Source: Mycobacterium sp. SMC-4
GTDB lineage: Bacteria > Actinomycetota > Actinomycetes > Mycobacteriales > Mycobacteriaceae
Assembly (NCBI RefSeq): GCF_025263265.1
Contig: NZ_CP079869.1
Span: forward strand, 5,332,001 to 5,396,000
Length of the DNA stretch: 64,000 nucleotides
Reading direction: 5' to 3'
The position numbers were made by a program, and so were the translations under genes. The notes under the pieces were generated by a model, which saw only the letters and a program-made list of their open reading frames with translations, was not told the DNA's origin and made no database searches. This document shows, in pieces, positions 12,450 to 40,785 of the stretch. The stretch's first letter is position 1, and the number at the start of each line of letters is the position of its first letter.

Positions 12450-12584
12450 ATTGGGTCGCAGTCCGCTGCACGGCAACCGAATCGGTTTCACGGCCGACGG
12501 GATGGGAAACGCGATGAGTTCAGGGCTCGCGCACCACGTACGTAGCCCCACATTCCCTGCACCCGATCACAGGAGTCATCGGTT

Positions 12585-13808
12585 ATGGACGATGCGATCG
12601 AGTCCCCGACAGCCACCGACCTCGCGGTCTCCGCAGCATGGGTCGCCGGCGCAGTCGCGGTTGCCTACGCGCTGGGGCTGACCGTGTCCTGGGTGCTGCA
12701 GCGCCTGGGACGACGCAGTGCGGTGCTGGCCGACGTCGCGCAACTGACACGCAGTCCGCTGCGGGCCACGCTGGTGGTGATCGCCGCGTCGGTGGCGGTC
12801 AACCGCACCACCGACGACGACGCCAGCTGGCGCGGCTGGGTGGACCACACGCTGGTGATCGCGCTCATCGCGTCGTTCACCTGGAGCGTGATCAGCCTGG
12901 TGCGGGTGGCCGAACGCCAGACCCTGTCGCGATTCGCCGGCGGCGATACCGGATTGACCGACGCCGACCGGCACCGTCGCAAGATCCGGACCCAGGTGAC
13001 CACGTTGCGGCGCATCGTGGTGGCGATCGTCGTGGTACTCGGTGGCGCGGCCGCGATGATGACGTTTCCGTCGTTCAGCGATATCGGAAGGACCATGTTC
13101 GCCTCGGCCGGTGTGCTGACCGTAGTAGCCGGCCTGGCCGCCCAGACCTCGCTGGGCGCGGCGTTCGCGGGCATTCAGATTGCCTTCTCCGATGCGATCC
13201 GGGTCGGCGATGTGGTTGTGCTCGAGGACGAATGGGGCCGCATCGAGGAGATCACGCTGACCTACGTGGTGGTGCACCTGTGGGATGAACGACGCCTGGT
13301 ACTGCCGTGCACGTACTTCACCACGTCGCCGTTCCAGAACTGGACGCGCAGCGCGACCGAACTGCTCGGCACTGCCGAACTCGACGTCGACTTCACGGTG
13401 CCGTTCGACGAGATGCGGGCCGAACTCGACCGGCTGCTGCATGCCAATGAGTTGTGGGACGGCCGAGTCGGCGTCCTGCAGGTCACCGACGCGGTCGAGG
13501 GACTGGTCCGGGTGCGCATGCTGGTCAGCGCGTCCAACGCCGGTGCGCTGTTCGATCTGCGCTGCCATGTCCGCGAAGGCATGATCACCTGGCTGCGCAA
13601 TGCCCACCCGGACGCGCTGCCGCGACAGCGGATCGAGCACCACTCCGAGCGCGGTCCGCACCCGCGCGGCAACCACTTCCCGGTCAGCGCAGCGCAGGCC
13701 GACGCCGGCCTGTTCAGCGGCAGCGCCCGCGGGCAGCAACGCAACCGCACCTTCCAGGCCGAGCAGCCTCGCGAAGAGGCCGCGGCGCCGGGACCTGCCC
13801 GCAACTAG
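12585..13808 (+). CDS. MscS-family mechanosensitive channel protein
   Basis: A 407-residue integral membrane protein. Hydrophobic segments lie near 14-36, 60-78, 88-105, 142-162 and 170-190, followed by the MscS signature GLAAQTSLGAAFAGIQIAFS and the beta-domain GDVVVLEDEWGRIEEITLTY. The C-terminal ~60 residues are charged and low complexity (HHSERGPHPRGNH onwards). It should gate ion flow on membrane tension. ATG 12585 follows a 135-base gap. The next gene starts 10 bases after its stop. Confidence 0.9.
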   Translation: MDDAIESPTATDLAVSAAWVAGAVAVAYALGLTVSWVLQRLGRRSAVLADVAQLTRSPLRATLVVIAASVAVNRTTDDDASWRGWVDHTLVIALIASFTWSVISLVRVAERQTLSRFAGGDTGLTDADRHRRKIRTQVTTLRRIVVAIVVVLGGAAAMMTFPSFSDIGRTMFASAGVLTVVAGLAAQTSLGAAFAGIQIAFSDAIRVGDVVVLEDEWGRIEEITLTYVVVHLWDERRLVLPCTYFTTSPFQNWTRSATELLGTAELDVDFTVPFDEMRAELDRLLHANELWDGRVGVLQVTDAVEGLVRVRMLVSASNAGALFDLRCHVREGMITWLRNAHPDALPRQRIEHHSERGPHPRGNHFPVSAAQADAGLFSGSARGQQRNRTFQAEQPREEAAAPGPARN

Positions 13809-15245: not shown

Positions 15246-15326
15246 GATCAAAACTACCCCTGGTCAGGTTCGGGTCGGTCGAGGTCCGTCTACCCGAGCT
15301 GTCGAGCAAACAAACCGACTGCGGGG

Positions 15327-17442: not shown

Positions 17443-17744
17443 TCAAGGGAGCAACCTTCCAGCACCGTGGCTTGCGCAGGGCAATCAATGTCGCCTACAG
17501 CGCCTTCCACCATCTGACCGGTGACGACGGCTCGCCGCCCCATGTGGGCGGAGGGGGTTGTGGGGTCGCTCGCAAAGGCTCGGTGAAATGGCGCAATCGA
17601 CCCGTCAGCGTGCTGACCACGCCGGAATACCTGTGCCAGCTGATGGCCGAACGAGAAACCGACACCGCGCCTCCCCACCCGTGGGACCGGTCCTGCACCG
17701 GTCGAAGATCAGGCGGGTACCCGAAGTGCGGGCGTTCAAACGCC

Positions 17745-18974: not shown

Positions 18975-18999
18975 GTTTGGTTTCGCCGCGTCGGGGTAC
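18975..18999 (+). promoter_or_regulatory. Candidate SigF promoter of the diiron protein gene
   Basis: GTTT at 18975-18978 and GGGTAC at 18994-18999 with a 15-base spacer, 5 of 6 matches to GGGTAT in the -10. The ATG at 19013 is 13 bases downstream, leaving a very short leader. Confidence 0.55.
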
Positions 19000-22171: not shown

Positions 22172-22389
22172 GTGCTCTCCTCCTCGACCGAACGCGTCGT
22201 GCTCGACGCGATGTCGAGCATTACCCGTCGGCGGCCCGGCCAAACGCCGACCTGAGGCAGGTGTCCGACCGTGCCCGGCCGGAATTGTCGAACGCGCTGG
22301 GCCAGAACGCCATTGACCGCCTCTGGGATCATGGCTGGATTCCGGCACCCGATGTCCTCCGGTCTCCGTTTCTCGGATACGGTCGAGCG

Positions 22390-24153: not shown

Positions 24154-24191
24154 GGTGAACCTCTACCCGCCGGTGTGCCGGACAAACGGGC

Positions 24192-26505: not shown

Positions 26506-26711
26506 CGTTCCGGTCGTCGCGCCGCTGACGTTTGCGCTGGTACGGCCAGTGTGGCGGGCACGATGTGACGGCGTCGCCGTAGACTGGCATGACCGCGATT
26601 TCCGCTGGACGGGGCCGAGCTGGGATGCTCCAGTCAGGGAGCGGGTGACTGTCGGGCGCGGTCGCACATCACGTGCAGCGGCCCCGGGCATCACCCGCGT
26701 GAGGAGGTGGT

Positions 26712-28340
26712 ATGAGGGACAACGCAGCCTCGGGCACCGGCACAGGGCTCGACGATCTGTGGACTGACGTGCCCCATCCCGTTCTGGTTGTCGATCCCGC
26801 CGGAGTGGTCCGCGCGCTGAGCGAATCCGTTCAACGGGTCCTGCCCGACGCGACCGTCGGCCGTGCCCTCGCCGACTGTGCGCCGGCGTGGCTGGCCGAA
26901 GCGCACCGCTGCGCTGCCCGTCCGGTGTCGGGTGTCCTGGACGGACACCGTTACACCGCGCAGCCCACCGCGCTGGCCGGCGCAGACCTCGCCTGGTGGC
27001 TGGTGGCCGAGAGCACGCCGGCTGTGCAGGAAATGCGCCAGGCGCTGGCCCGGGAACAGGAGCGTGCGGCGTTTCTCGACGAAGCGTCCGCGGTGCTGAT
27101 GGCGTCGCTGAACATCGACCGCTGCATGGAAGCCACCGTGCAGATGGCCGCGCGCCACATCGCCGACGCGGCGGTGGTGGTGGCACCGGTGGTCGGCGGC
27201 CGGTTACCGGTGGTGTGCTGCGACGACCAGGGCGTCGTCGAGCACCGCCAAATCACCGCCGACCCTGCCGAGGTGGCCGGGCTCAGCGAGGCGCTGCGCG
27301 GATTCCCCCCGGTGCCTTCCCGATGGATCGATCCGACCGCGGTCCCCGATTGGCTTGTCCCCCAAGAGTTCATCGGCTCGATCGGTTCAGTGGTCATCAC
27401 CCCGCTGCCCGGCCACGGCGTGCCGGCCGGCGCGCTGGTGTTGTTGCGACGCAACTCCCAGACCGTGTTCACCGCGGGCGAGGAGTTGTTCGCCCGGCTG
27501 TTCGCCGCACGTGCCGGGGCGGCGCTGTCGGCTGCCCGGCTCTATGCCGAGCAGTCAGCGATCACCCGCACCCTGATGCGCGATCTGTTGCCCCCGCAGC
27601 TGCATCGCCTCGACGGGATCGAGCTGGCCGGCGGCTACCGGGCCTCCGAGGACCACGAAGCCGTCGGCGGCGACTTCTACGACGTGCACCCCGCCGTCGG
27701 AGACGACGGGGAGACTCTGATCGTGCTCGGAGACGTCTGCGGCAAGGGTCTGGAGGCCGCGGTGATGTCGGGCAAGATCCGCAATACGTTGCAAGCCCTG
27801 GCTCCGTTGGCCGGCGACCACGCCGCGGTGCTGGGTCTGCTCAACAGTGCGCTGCTGTCCCCGCACGACACCCGATTCGTGACGCTGGTGCTGGCCTCGG
27901 TGGCGTGCCGGGACGGCCGTGTGACGCTACGGCTGACCAGCGCCGGTCATATGGCACCGCTGATCGTGCGGAGCGACGGCAGTGTCGAAGAGGCCGACAC
28001 CCGCGGCACCCTGGTCGGGGTGCTTCCGCACATCAACGCCCGCACCTTCGAGACGTCGCTGGCGCCTGGCGAAACCTGTCTGCTCTACACCGACGGCGTC
28101 ACCGAGGCGCACGGTGGCCCGCTGGGCACCGACATGTTCGGTGAGCAGCGGCTCTCGACCGCGCTGGCCCAGTGCGTTGGTCTGCCGGCCGAGGCCGTCG
28201 TCGAGCACGTGATGATGCTGACCTCACAGTGGGTGAACCGACGCAGCCACGACGACATCGCGGTGGTGGCCATCACATCTCCCCGTCGCACCCATCTAAG
28301 CGCGGTGGACGGGCACACAGCGGGTAGATACATCGCATGA
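26712..28340 (+). CDS. PAS-GAF-SpoIIE (PP2C-type) serine phosphatase, RsbU/RsbP-like
   Basis: A 542-residue signalling phosphatase. Residues 15-105 look like a PAS domain (HPVLVVDPAGVVRALSES), 125-280 a GAF domain, and 300-530 the SpoIIE PP2C domain with metal Asp in GGDFYDV (319-325), GDVCGKG (340-346), YTDGVTEA and HDDIAVV. Such enzymes dephosphorylate STAS anti-anti-sigma proteins so that they can free a sigma factor. ATG 26712 has GGAGGTG just upstream. Its stop overlaps the start of the B12-binding gene, and the STAS substrate is encoded two genes on, so the three are one module. Confidence 0.9.
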   Translation: MRDNAASGTGTGLDDLWTDVPHPVLVVDPAGVVRALSESVQRVLPDATVGRALADCAPAWLAEAHRCAARPVSGVLDGHRYTAQPTALAGADLAWWLVAESTPAVQEMRQALAREQERAAFLDEASAVLMASLNIDRCMEATVQMAARHIADAAVVVAPVVGGRLPVVCCDDQGVVEHRQITADPAEVAGLSEALRGFPPVPSRWIDPTAVPDWLVPQEFIGSIGSVVITPLPGHGVPAGALVLLRRNSQTVFTAGEELFARLFAARAGAALSAARLYAEQSAITRTLMRDLLPPQLHRLDGIELAGGYRASEDHEAVGGDFYDVHPAVGDDGETLIVLGDVCGKGLEAAVMSGKIRNTLQALAPLAGDHAAVLGLLNSALLSPHDTRFVTLVLASVACRDGRVTLRLTSAGHMAPLIVRSDGSVEEADTRGTLVGVLPHINARTFETSLAPGETCLLYTDGVTEAHGGPLGTDMFGEQRLSTALAQCVGLPAEAVVEHVMMLTSQWVNRRSHDDIAVVAITSPRRTHLSAVDGHTAGRYIA

Positions 28341-29422
28341 GCGCCGCCGGTGACCACTCGGGCCCGGCCGAAGACTTCCGGGAGCAGCTGTGGACCGCTG
28401 CCGTCGACGGTGACGAGTACACCGCGATCCAGGTCGTCTTCGGGGCACTCGAACGCGGTATGCCCGCCGAAGATGTCCTGCTCGAGGTGATCGCTCCGGT
28501 CCAGCAGCGGGTGGGTATGGAGTGGGCCGCCAACCGGATCACCGTCGCGCAGGAGCACGCGGCCACCGCGATCAACGATCGGGTGATCGCTGCGTTGGCC
28601 CATCACCCGGGCGTACACCGGCCTGCATCTGCCGGACGGGTGACCGTCGCGTGCGTCGACGGTGAATGGCATGCGATGCCCGCGCGCCTGCTCGCCGAGG
28701 TCCTGCGGTTGCACGGCTGGCGGGTCGACTTCCTGGGAGCCCAGGTACCGACGCCGCACCTGATCGCCCACATCAACCAGCACGGACCCGATGTCGTCGC
28801 CCTGTCGTGTTCCATTGCCACCGGGCTGCCCACCGCCCACGCGGCGATCACCGCCTGCCAGGCCGCCGGTGTGCCCGTCCTGGTCGGCGGTGCGGCCTTC
28901 GGGACGGACGGCCGGTTCGCCGCGCTGCTCAACGCCGACGCGTGGGCGCCCGACGCTCGCTCGGCAGCGGCCCGACTGGCGCAGGGGTTCGGGCCGGTCC
29001 GCATCGCACCCACCCACCAGGCCGTCGACGACCTCCCGCATCTGGCCGACCAGGAGTACACGATGGTCCGCGACTCGGCGGCGCGGCTGGTGCAGGCCAC
29101 CATGAGCGACCTCGAACAACGCCTGCCGGACGTGCGCGACTACACCGAGCAGCAACGCCAGCACACGACCGAGGACATCGCCCACACCATCGACTTTCTG
29201 GCCTGCGCGCTTTACACCGATGACGACCAACTGTTCACCCAGTTCGTCGCCTGGACCGCCGAGATCCTCAGCGCGCGCGACGTGCCCGCCGCGTCACTGC
29301 TGCCCTCCCTGGACTCGCTGGCCGCGCAACTAACCGAGTTCCCCCGCACCCAACGGCTGCTCCGCAATGCGCGTGCCGGCCTGCTCGTTCCGCTGTCCGC
29401 CGACCCCGAACTCCCCGTATGA
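28337..29422 (+). CDS. CarH-like cobalamin-binding sensor protein
   Basis: A 361-residue protein. Residues 10-90 form the helical bundle of B12 sensors with the signature VGMEWAANRITVAQEH: Trp63, Glu73, His74 at the spacing of CarH Trp131, Glu141, His142. Residues 100-215 are the Rossmann-like B12 domain with GEWHAMP (His112 as lower axial ligand) and VGGAAFG. The remaining ~140 residues are helical and of unknown role. CarH uses His132 next to its Trp after light exposure; here that residue is Ala64, so light sensing is uncertain. There is no DNA-binding domain. It overlaps the phosphatase and STAS genes by ATGA on both sides. Confidence 0.85.
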   Translation: MSAAGDHSGPAEDFREQLWTAAVDGDEYTAIQVVFGALERGMPAEDVLLEVIAPVQQRVGMEWAANRITVAQEHAATAINDRVIAALAHHPGVHRPASAGRVTVACVDGEWHAMPARLLAEVLRLHGWRVDFLGAQVPTPHLIAHINQHGPDVVALSCSIATGLPTAHAAITACQAAGVPVLVGGAAFGTDGRFAALLNADAWAPDARSAAARLAQGFGPVRIAPTHQAVDDLPHLADQEYTMVRDSAARLVQATMSDLEQRLPDVRDYTEQQRQHTTEDIAHTIDFLACALYTDDDQLFTQFVAWTAEILSARDVPAASLLPSLDSLAAQLTEFPRTQRLLRNARAGLLVPLSADPELPV

Positions 29423-29781
29423 ACAATCTCACCGTCACCATTGCCTCCGCGCCTCCGGCTACCTGCGTGCACGTCTGCGGCGACCTCGCCTACGGCTCGA
29501 CCGCCATATTGGTCGACGCGGTGGCCGCCCTCTGCACCCCCGGCGCCGGTGTCGAGCAGCTGCATCTGGACTTCACCGAGCTGACGTTCTGTGACTCGGC
29601 CGGCTTGTCGGCGTTGTTGCTCATCCACCGCCAGACGTGCGACGCAGGCATTCCGTTGCACCTCGATCACCGGCCTGCACACCTCCAACGGGTCCTGGAG
29701 ATCACCGGCCTGCTCGACCACCTGACCACCTCTGCGGTCCAGACGCCGGCCAACGACCCCGACGAGACCGAGATCGGCTGA
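29419..29781 (+). CDS. STAS-domain anti-anti-sigma factor
   Basis: A 120-residue STAS protein. The switch motif FCDSAGLSAL places the phosphorylatable Ser60 after Asp59, as in RsbV and SpoIIAA. It should bind an anti-sigma kinase when unphosphorylated and be reset by phosphorylation; the SpoIIE phosphatase upstream is the obvious activator. The anti-sigma kinase and sigma factor are not in the window. ATG 29419 overlaps the stop of the B12 protein gene. Confidence 0.9.
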   Translation: MNNLTVTIASAPPATCVHVCGDLAYGSTAILVDAVAALCTPGAGVEQLHLDFTELTFCDSAGLSALLLIHRQTCDAGIPLHLDHRPAHLQRVLEITGLLDHLTTSAVQTPANDPDETEIG

Positions 29782-40759: not shown

Positions 40760-40785
40760 GTTTGTCCCTTTCGCCACATGGGTAA
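40760..40785 (+). promoter_or_regulatory. Candidate SigF promoter of the hypothetical gene at 40855
   Basis: GTTT at 40760-40763 and GGGTAA at 40780-40785 with a 16-base spacer, 5 of 6 in the -10. A leader of roughly 60 bases would follow. Confidence 0.5.

Follow-up and report, generated by a model that had tools for sequence, protein, structure and literature searches.

A conserved actinobacterial gene trio of SpoIIE-type phosphatase, photocobilin and STAS protein: a candidate light-responsive input to partner switching

Introduction

The nearest solved relative of the B12 protein considered here is SasPcob, the stand-alone photocobilin of Saccharothrix syringae, which is photoactive and whose structures are deposited as PDB 8J2W and 8J2X (PMC10979010; this and the other papers cited here are represented by excerpts). 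According to the excerpts of that paper, the apparent turnover of a photocobilin-fused diguanylate cyclase rose more than 10-fold in the light, and a separate cyclase worked at a different rate once separate photocobilin domains were added. The same work includes a gene-neighbourhood analysis on 506 photocobilin sequences and names STAS, SpoIIE and PP2C-like phosphatases, without experiment, as potential interaction partners of SasPcob. Here we describe a locus of Mycobacterium sp. SMC-4 in which three overlapping genes encode a SpoIIE-type phosphatase, a photocobilin and a STAS protein. The locus lies in a stretch of 64,000 nucleotides (NZ_CP079869.1, positions 5,332,001 to 5,396,000), referred to below as the window, whose own numbering is used throughout.

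Phosphatases and STAS proteins of these types operate in partner switching, which in M. smegmatis governs the sigma factor SigF (PMC7693655). The carotenoid (crt) locus of this organism is less expressed when sigF is mutated, and the SigF box has been published as GTTT-N14-19-GGGTA (PMC4694148). In the excerpts of two papers on mycobacterial pigmentation, no photosensor is named, and the matches listed from the open-licence literature included neither an experimental study of such a trio nor a named mycobacterial photosensor. An original prediction, made from the letters of the window, had called the locus a cobalamin-linked partner-switching module without a described counterpart. It is partly right: the open-licence matches listed include no experiment on such a trio, but the link of SasPcob to STAS, SpoIIE and PP2C-like phosphatases had already been suggested. 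The kinase cassettes, the conservation in 56 of 56 loci and the carotenoid dependence reported below are new, in that we did not find them in the excerpts of PMC10979010.

Results

All three open reading frames lie on the + strand, with an ATGA overlap at both joints. The coordinates thus confirm the layout proposed originally.

26701..26707, + strand: Shine-Dalgarno-like gaggagg 5′ of the phosphatase gene, read directly from the sequence
26712..28340, + strand: SpoIIE/PP2C-type serine phosphatase gene, 542 amino acids
28337..29422, + strand: photocobilin gene, stand-alone type, 361 amino acids
29419..29781, + strand: STAS anti-anti-sigma-type gene, 120 amino acids, with a STAS_2 Pfam match

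To assess conservation, we read 58 orthologous loci, which represent 56 distinct ones (two pairs are the same place; there are no further duplicates). Twenty-two came, with long flanks, from a scan of named genome contigs; 30 came from 198 genomes drawn from the genus to which G002 belongs, G002 being the genome that contains the Mycolicibacterium locus L002; and six came from 396 genomes drawn across its phylum, in a search that scored 5 candidates per genome and gave 9 genomes with a relative of at least 49% identity. The 198 genomes are an even draw from a larger group, and 30 of the 41 carriers among them were read, with 11 left out. Each search contributed its best matches (30 per search), so that the 56 loci are not a random sample. 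Their neighbours were called with profiles built for the analysis. A SpoIIE gene was found directly upstream, on the same strand, in 56/56 loci (49–82% identity), from mycobacteria to Streptomyces, and the phosphatase and photocobilin genes share a 4-base overlap in 55/56. A STAS gene follows directly downstream in 48/56, with a 4-base overlap in 45 of these 48, and a STAS gene in any position was present in 53/56. Both neighbours were present in all of the 30 mycobacterial loci from the 198-genome draw.

The invariant SpoIIE neighbour and its overlap exclude an association of the genes by chance, and the trio is an old unit. A lack of conservation beyond close relatives had been named as an outcome that would refute the original prediction; this test does not refute it, the module being kept in genera as far apart as mycobacteria and Streptomyces. 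The conservation of gene order and key residues gives good support to a cobalamin-linked partner-switching module. Among distant full-length relatives of the photocobilin (31–42% identity, L059–L071), a SpoIIE gene adjoins in 2 of the 13 loci. These two, L065 (773-2505) and L066, represent a second mycobacterial photocobilin lineage, about 35% identical and also paired with a SpoIIE gene; no STAS match was found within their 1.5-kb flanks. As a side observation, about 5.4 kb separate the photocobilin gene from ftsZ in six mycobacterial genomes (G001, G008, G045, G069, G106 and G161), whereas in G091 and G002 the gene lies elsewhere.

The middle protein matches the Pfam families B12-binding (PF02310, E-value 8.4e-21) and B12-binding_2 (PF02607, E-value 1.1e-15), and its structure model contains a bilin-binding-type globin at residues ~234–355. 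The fold is thus that of a photocobilin, a four-helix bundle and a Rossmann domain joined to a C-terminal globin.

28358..28621, + strand: four-helix bundle over the upper face of B12 (PF02607), with Trp63, Glu73, His74, and Ala64 at the place of the extra His of CarH
28622..28990, + strand: Rossmann B12-binding domain (PF02310), with axial His112 in GEWHAMP, and His141
29036..29401, + strand: C-terminal photoglobin domain (biliverdin-binding-type globin), with Asp280 and Trp306

In an alignment with SasPcob that covers the full length in equal domain order, 156 of 328 aligned residues are identical. Trp61, Glu71, His72 and His108 of SasPcob correspond to Trp63, Glu73, His74 and His112, its His137 to His141, and its biliverdin contacts Asp270 and Trp296 to Asp280 and Trp306, so that all seven of the B12 and biliverdin residues compared are kept. 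Asp280 is retained in 55/56 and Trp306 in 56/56 orthologues. By its sequence, residues and structure model, the middle protein is a photocobilin, and by analogy it is predicted to bind adenosylcobalamin (AdoCbl) and biliverdin and to respond to green or red light. Its nearest named homologue among the matches listed is that of Mycolicibacterium duvalii (82%); M. smegmatis has a 69% homologue among the matches listed, by protein match alone. The names M. kansasii and M. marinum are both absent from either of two lists of protein matches (the best 120 of 1948 and the best 120 of 278), in which many entries are nameless, so that this does not amount to absence from these species.

The protein had been introduced as a CarH-like B12 sensor. 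The B12 signature on which this was based (Trp63, Glu73, His74 and His112) is as described, but the C-terminal globin was overlooked and the identity differs. Membership in CarH is ruled out: an N-terminal MerR-type DNA-binding domain is missing, as had been correctly noted (Pfam gives the two B12-binding families alone, from residue 15), and the CarH equivalog model scores 53.8 bits vs a cut-off of 400. Ala64, at the place of the CarH His132 that forms the bis-His light state, had been taken as a sign against light. This argument fails, since SasPcob has Gln there and its light state is ligated by water or hydroxide, not bis-His, according to the excerpts of PMC10979010; the absence of this His does not exclude light sensing. 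Ala occupies position 64 in 54/56 orthologues, and PDB titles list a light-adapted structure of the CarH H132A variant.

The 120-amino-acid protein matches STAS_2 (E-value 6.1e-10) and aligns to the anti-sigma-B factor antagonist 6m36_B and to TM1442 (1sbo_A). Ser60, in the motif DSAG, is the candidate phospho-acceptor already pointed out in the original prediction, and is kept in 48/48 downstream STAS proteins. The protein therefore has the phosphorylatable-type Ser expected of partner switching, and its phosphorylation is predicted.

The phosphatase matches SpoIIE (E-value 2.2e-41). Its proposed PAS and GAF domains fell below threshold by sequence (PAS_4, E-value 0.0086; GAF, E-value 0.033), but the structure model has two alpha/beta domains N-terminal to the PP2C domain, and the GAF match of the orthologue in locus L005 is just above its cut-off. 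The best structural match of the model is Rv1364c of M. tuberculosis. Asp321, Asp341, Asp461, Asp514 and Asp515 of the PP2C domain, which we take to be metal-binding residues, are present in 56/56 orthologous loci, and Asp324 in 55/56.

Residues ~12–99: PAS-like domain
Residues ~135–247: GAF-like domain
Residues 255–291: long helix
Residues ~300–522: PP2C domain, with Asp321, Asp341, Asp461 and Asp514/515

Four families were compared with the trio across the 198 mycobacterial genomes. An orthologue of the trio photocobilin is present in 41 (best segment 62–82% identity; in three, G017, G075 and G148, only in pieces), with a patchy distribution; 24 further genomes have only a distant photocobilin relative. 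Phytoene synthase (PF00494) was found in 41/41 carriers vs 100/157 others (Fisher, 1.4e-7), and phytoene desaturase (TIGR02734, E ≤ 1e-60), which gave the matching answer, in 41/41 vs 97/157 (p = 5.6e-8). PF00494 includes squalene synthases too, and the two carotenoid families are not mutually independent (137 genomes have both). Photolyase (39/41 vs 136/157, p = 0.17) and heme oxygenase (13/41 vs 52/157, p = 1; on the tree described below, 10 observed vs 12.2 simulated) showed no association; a heme oxygenase was thus rejected as a trio-linked source of biliverdin. The association holds for the two carotenoid families only.

As a control for kinship, we used a tree of a single gene, ftsZ, with 120 of the 198 genomes: 31 of the 41 carriers, 45 of the 57 genomes without phytoene synthase and 44 of the 100 others, leaving out genomes without a listed FtsZ row and some of the listed others. 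The best tree calls for 16 or more changes of the trio, eight of them forced by starred branches; the trio has therefore been gained or lost repeatedly. When the trio was simulated on this tree, carriers free of phytoene synthase were absent in 4 of 34,905 kept runs, with 12.3 expected on average; when phytoene synthase was simulated instead, zero overlap occurred in none of 16,106 runs. A model of dependent evolution beats independence (p = 1.2e-4), a rough value with some rates at their set bounds. The independent-pairs test on starred branches was underpowered: 8 pairs gave means of 2.3 changing the same way, 0.0 the opposite way and 5.7 without difference (median p 0.5). In one 11-genome clade of the tree, the sole bearer of phytoene synthase, G084, is also the sole bearer of the trio photocobilin, the other 10 being without phytoene synthase; G084 has no photolyase match. 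In Streptomyces sp. NRRL S-31 (L019, 865-9388), the trio lies on one strand behind genes for a prenyl synthase, a crtI-family desaturase, a phytoene synthase-family protein and a Rieske/DUF5914 protein. Probing with the L019 proteins found this linkage neither in the other 26 long loci nor in the window.

In 16 of the 22 long-flank loci, the same strand carries an RsbW-type kinase gene no more than 3.5 kb away. These 16 include no mycobacterial locus, and the count is a lower bound, as the other loci span a flank of only ~1.5 kb. The kinase gene is upstream in 15/15 Amycolatopsis loci, eight of which have the full order STAS–RsbW–SpoIIE–photocobilin–STAS, and HATPase_c_2 recognises the L005 and L008 kinases with scores above its cut-off. 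Genome-wide, HATPase_c_2 has 19 matches in G001 and 22 in G002. The SigF-type box, searched for as GTTT-N14-18-GGGTA, has 6 matches in the window vs 0.26 expected, a number reached in 0 of 100 shuffles. The matches at 15291, 24164 and 40760 lie within ~75 bases upstream of a called open reading frame. As all of the matches are elsewhere in the window, autoregulation of the trio operon by SigF finds no support.

15291-15315, − strand: SigF-type box match
17718-17741, − strand: SigF-type box match
18975-18998, + strand: SigF-type box match
22222-22245, − strand: SigF-type box match
24164-24187, − strand: SigF-type box match
40760-40784, + strand: SigF-type box match

Relatives of the photocobilin also occur on six plasmid records, five of which were examined. 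Three Streptomyces plasmids have an annotated PP2C phosphatase, cobalamin-dependent protein and STAS gene followed by a MarR regulator, and the S. xanthophaeus plasmid has an ATP-binding protein and two further STAS genes beside the trio. The MarR gene behind one of the Streptomyces plasmid trios has no similarity to the MarR gene upstream in the window. On the S. fungicidicus plasmid (L084), an adenosylcobinamide amidohydrolase gene (12450-13130) lies just upstream of a phosphatase–photocobilin pair, so that a link to B12 salvage is possible. On another Streptomyces plasmid (L081, 14977-18946), the photocobilin gene immediately precedes gas-vesicle genes, which might point to buoyancy controlled by light.

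Discussion

We consider it fairly probable that the trio is a light-responsive input to partner switching, in which light converts the B12 sensor that controls the phosphatase and the STAS protein switches its anti-sigma partner. In the dark, the photocobilin would be a dimer holding AdoCbl, plus a bilin where available. Light, whether B12 absorbs it directly or the bilin relays it, would break the Co–C bond, release the adenosyl group and alter the dimer, which would act in trans on the PAS-GAF-SpoIIE phosphatase encoded upstream. From the cyclase precedent in the excerpts of PMC10979010, we infer the neighbouring phosphatase as the enzyme and the neighbouring STAS protein as its substrate. 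In the simplest case, the phosphatase would be held inactive in the dark and freed by light; this sign, borrowed from the cyclase, is the part of the scheme of which we are least sure. The freed phosphatase would dephosphorylate Ser60 of the STAS protein, which would then bind an RsbW-type kinase/anti-sigma factor and so free a sigma factor. In mycobacteria this would likely be SigF, whose regulon in M. smegmatis includes carotenoid genes. As a tentative extension, the trio could be an unrecognised light input to mycobacterial carotenoids, with photocobilin acting through phosphatase and STAS protein to free SigF or a like sigma factor and so induce crt. Introducing the crt locus of M. kansasii, together with its MarR regulator CrtR, made M. 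smegmatis light-pigmented, according to the excerpts of PMC9861118; some light-responsive route therefore exists in M. smegmatis, which may or may not be the trio.

Several observations weigh against a light input of this kind. M. smegmatis, with its 69% homologue, is off-white in the dark and in the light; the light transcriptome of M. kansasii comprises 14 changed genes only; and the pigment of M. kansasii has been attributed to the MarR repressor CrtR, with a photo-oxidation product favoured as its trigger (all from the excerpts of PMC9861118). Neither the window nor the flanks of the long mycobacterial loci L001 and L002 contain an RsbW-like frame, so that the kinase must be encoded elsewhere, and the window search found no GTTT-N14-18-GGGTA box upstream of the trio. 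The profile search of flanks found no STAS gene in 3 of the 56 loci, the pair on the S. fungicidicus plasmid has no annotated adjoining STAS gene, and the L081 photocobilin is a clear exception without an adjoining phosphatase. Finally, a classical heme oxygenase (PF01126) was unmatched in 28 of the 41 carriers, though the orthologues read retain the residues that contact biliverdin. The bilin of these carriers would then be made by a different enzyme, unless many of the photocobilins work on B12 alone. Bilins other than biliverdin, such as mycobilin, arise by heme breakdown, and in the absence of a heme oxygenase the globin may hold a bilin of this different kind, or none.

These points have to be set beside the other explanations of the trio. 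The phosphatase retains its own sensor region and the STAS gene, too, overlaps the photocobilin gene by 4 bases in 45/48 loci, as might be expected if the photocobilin acted directly on the STAS protein or the kinase while the phosphatase obeyed its own PAS-GAF region, two inputs meeting at the STAS protein. We regard this arrangement as unlikely, the phosphatase being the invariant neighbour (56/56) while the STAS gene is not directly downstream in 8/56, and the photocobilins of L065 and L066 adjoining a SpoIIE gene with no STAS match nearby. Alternatively, the B12 protein could report the supply of AdoCbl, or the redox or oxygen state, with AdoCbl loading alone setting phosphatase activity. 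The missing heme oxygenases and the amidohydrolase gene on the S. fungicidicus plasmid would agree with such a role, as would the finding that AdoCbl binding alone lowers the activity of the cyclase fusion relative to the apo form (excerpts of PMC10979010). A B12 gauge, however, would not need the biliverdin contacts Asp280 and Trp306, the nearest solved relative, SasPcob, is photoactive, and carotenoid genes are present in 41/41 carriers, all of which makes a cue other than light rather unlikely.

The output might also act on a partner other than an anti-sigma factor, for example a nucleotide cyclase or a transporter. STAS-only proteins with other targets are known, there is no sigma factor among the scanned neighbours of the window trio, and an RsbW-like frame is missing from the window. 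With RsbW-type kinases in 16 of the 22 long-flank cassettes, and those of L005 and L008 above the HATPase_c_2 cut-off, we think such an output distinctly unlikely. That unrelated genes share an operon by accident is very unlikely in view of the 56/56 adjacency and the 4-base overlaps kept across several actinobacterial genera.

The light-responsive partner-switching input, if true, would mean that in a large group of soil bacteria that do not photosynthesise, a stress sigma-factor switch is controlled by light via vitamin B12; this widespread module probably allows light to turn on stress and pigment genes. The trio would then provide a candidate photosensor for light-induced mycobacterial pigment and a natural phosphatase switch responsive to green or red light. 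The occurrence of the trio together with carotenoid genes makes a guess already in print a directly testable link, and a homologue exists in M. smegmatis, a laboratory species.

Among the known systems, YtvA of the Bacillus stressosome, a LOV–STAS protein in which a flavin LOV domain is fused to STAS, resembles the proposed scheme in that light feeds a STAS/phosphatase partner switch; the trio differs in that it would use B12–bilin chemistry in a separate protein. With the CarH/LitR B12 photoreceptors, the middle protein shares the fold of the B12 domain and the Trp and Glu-His signature, but it has no DNA-binding domain, no His at the His132 place, and an extra bilin-binding-type globin. The RsbU/RsbP–RsbV–RsbW switches, Rv1364c and the SigF switching of M. 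smegmatis (excerpts of PMC7693655) likewise combine a SpoIIE-type phosphatase with a STAS protein that has a conserved Ser, and the RsbW kinase is present in 15/15 Amycolatopsis trio cassettes. Unlike in RsbU/RsbP–RsbV–RsbW switching, the sensor of the trio is a separate photocobilin gene, and the long-flank mycobacterial loci have no kinase in the operon. With SasPcob, the 361-amino-acid protein has homology over the full length, equal domain order and the seven B12 and biliverdin residues in common; it differs in having Ala64 where SasPcob has Gln, and its photochemistry and action in trans are predicted.

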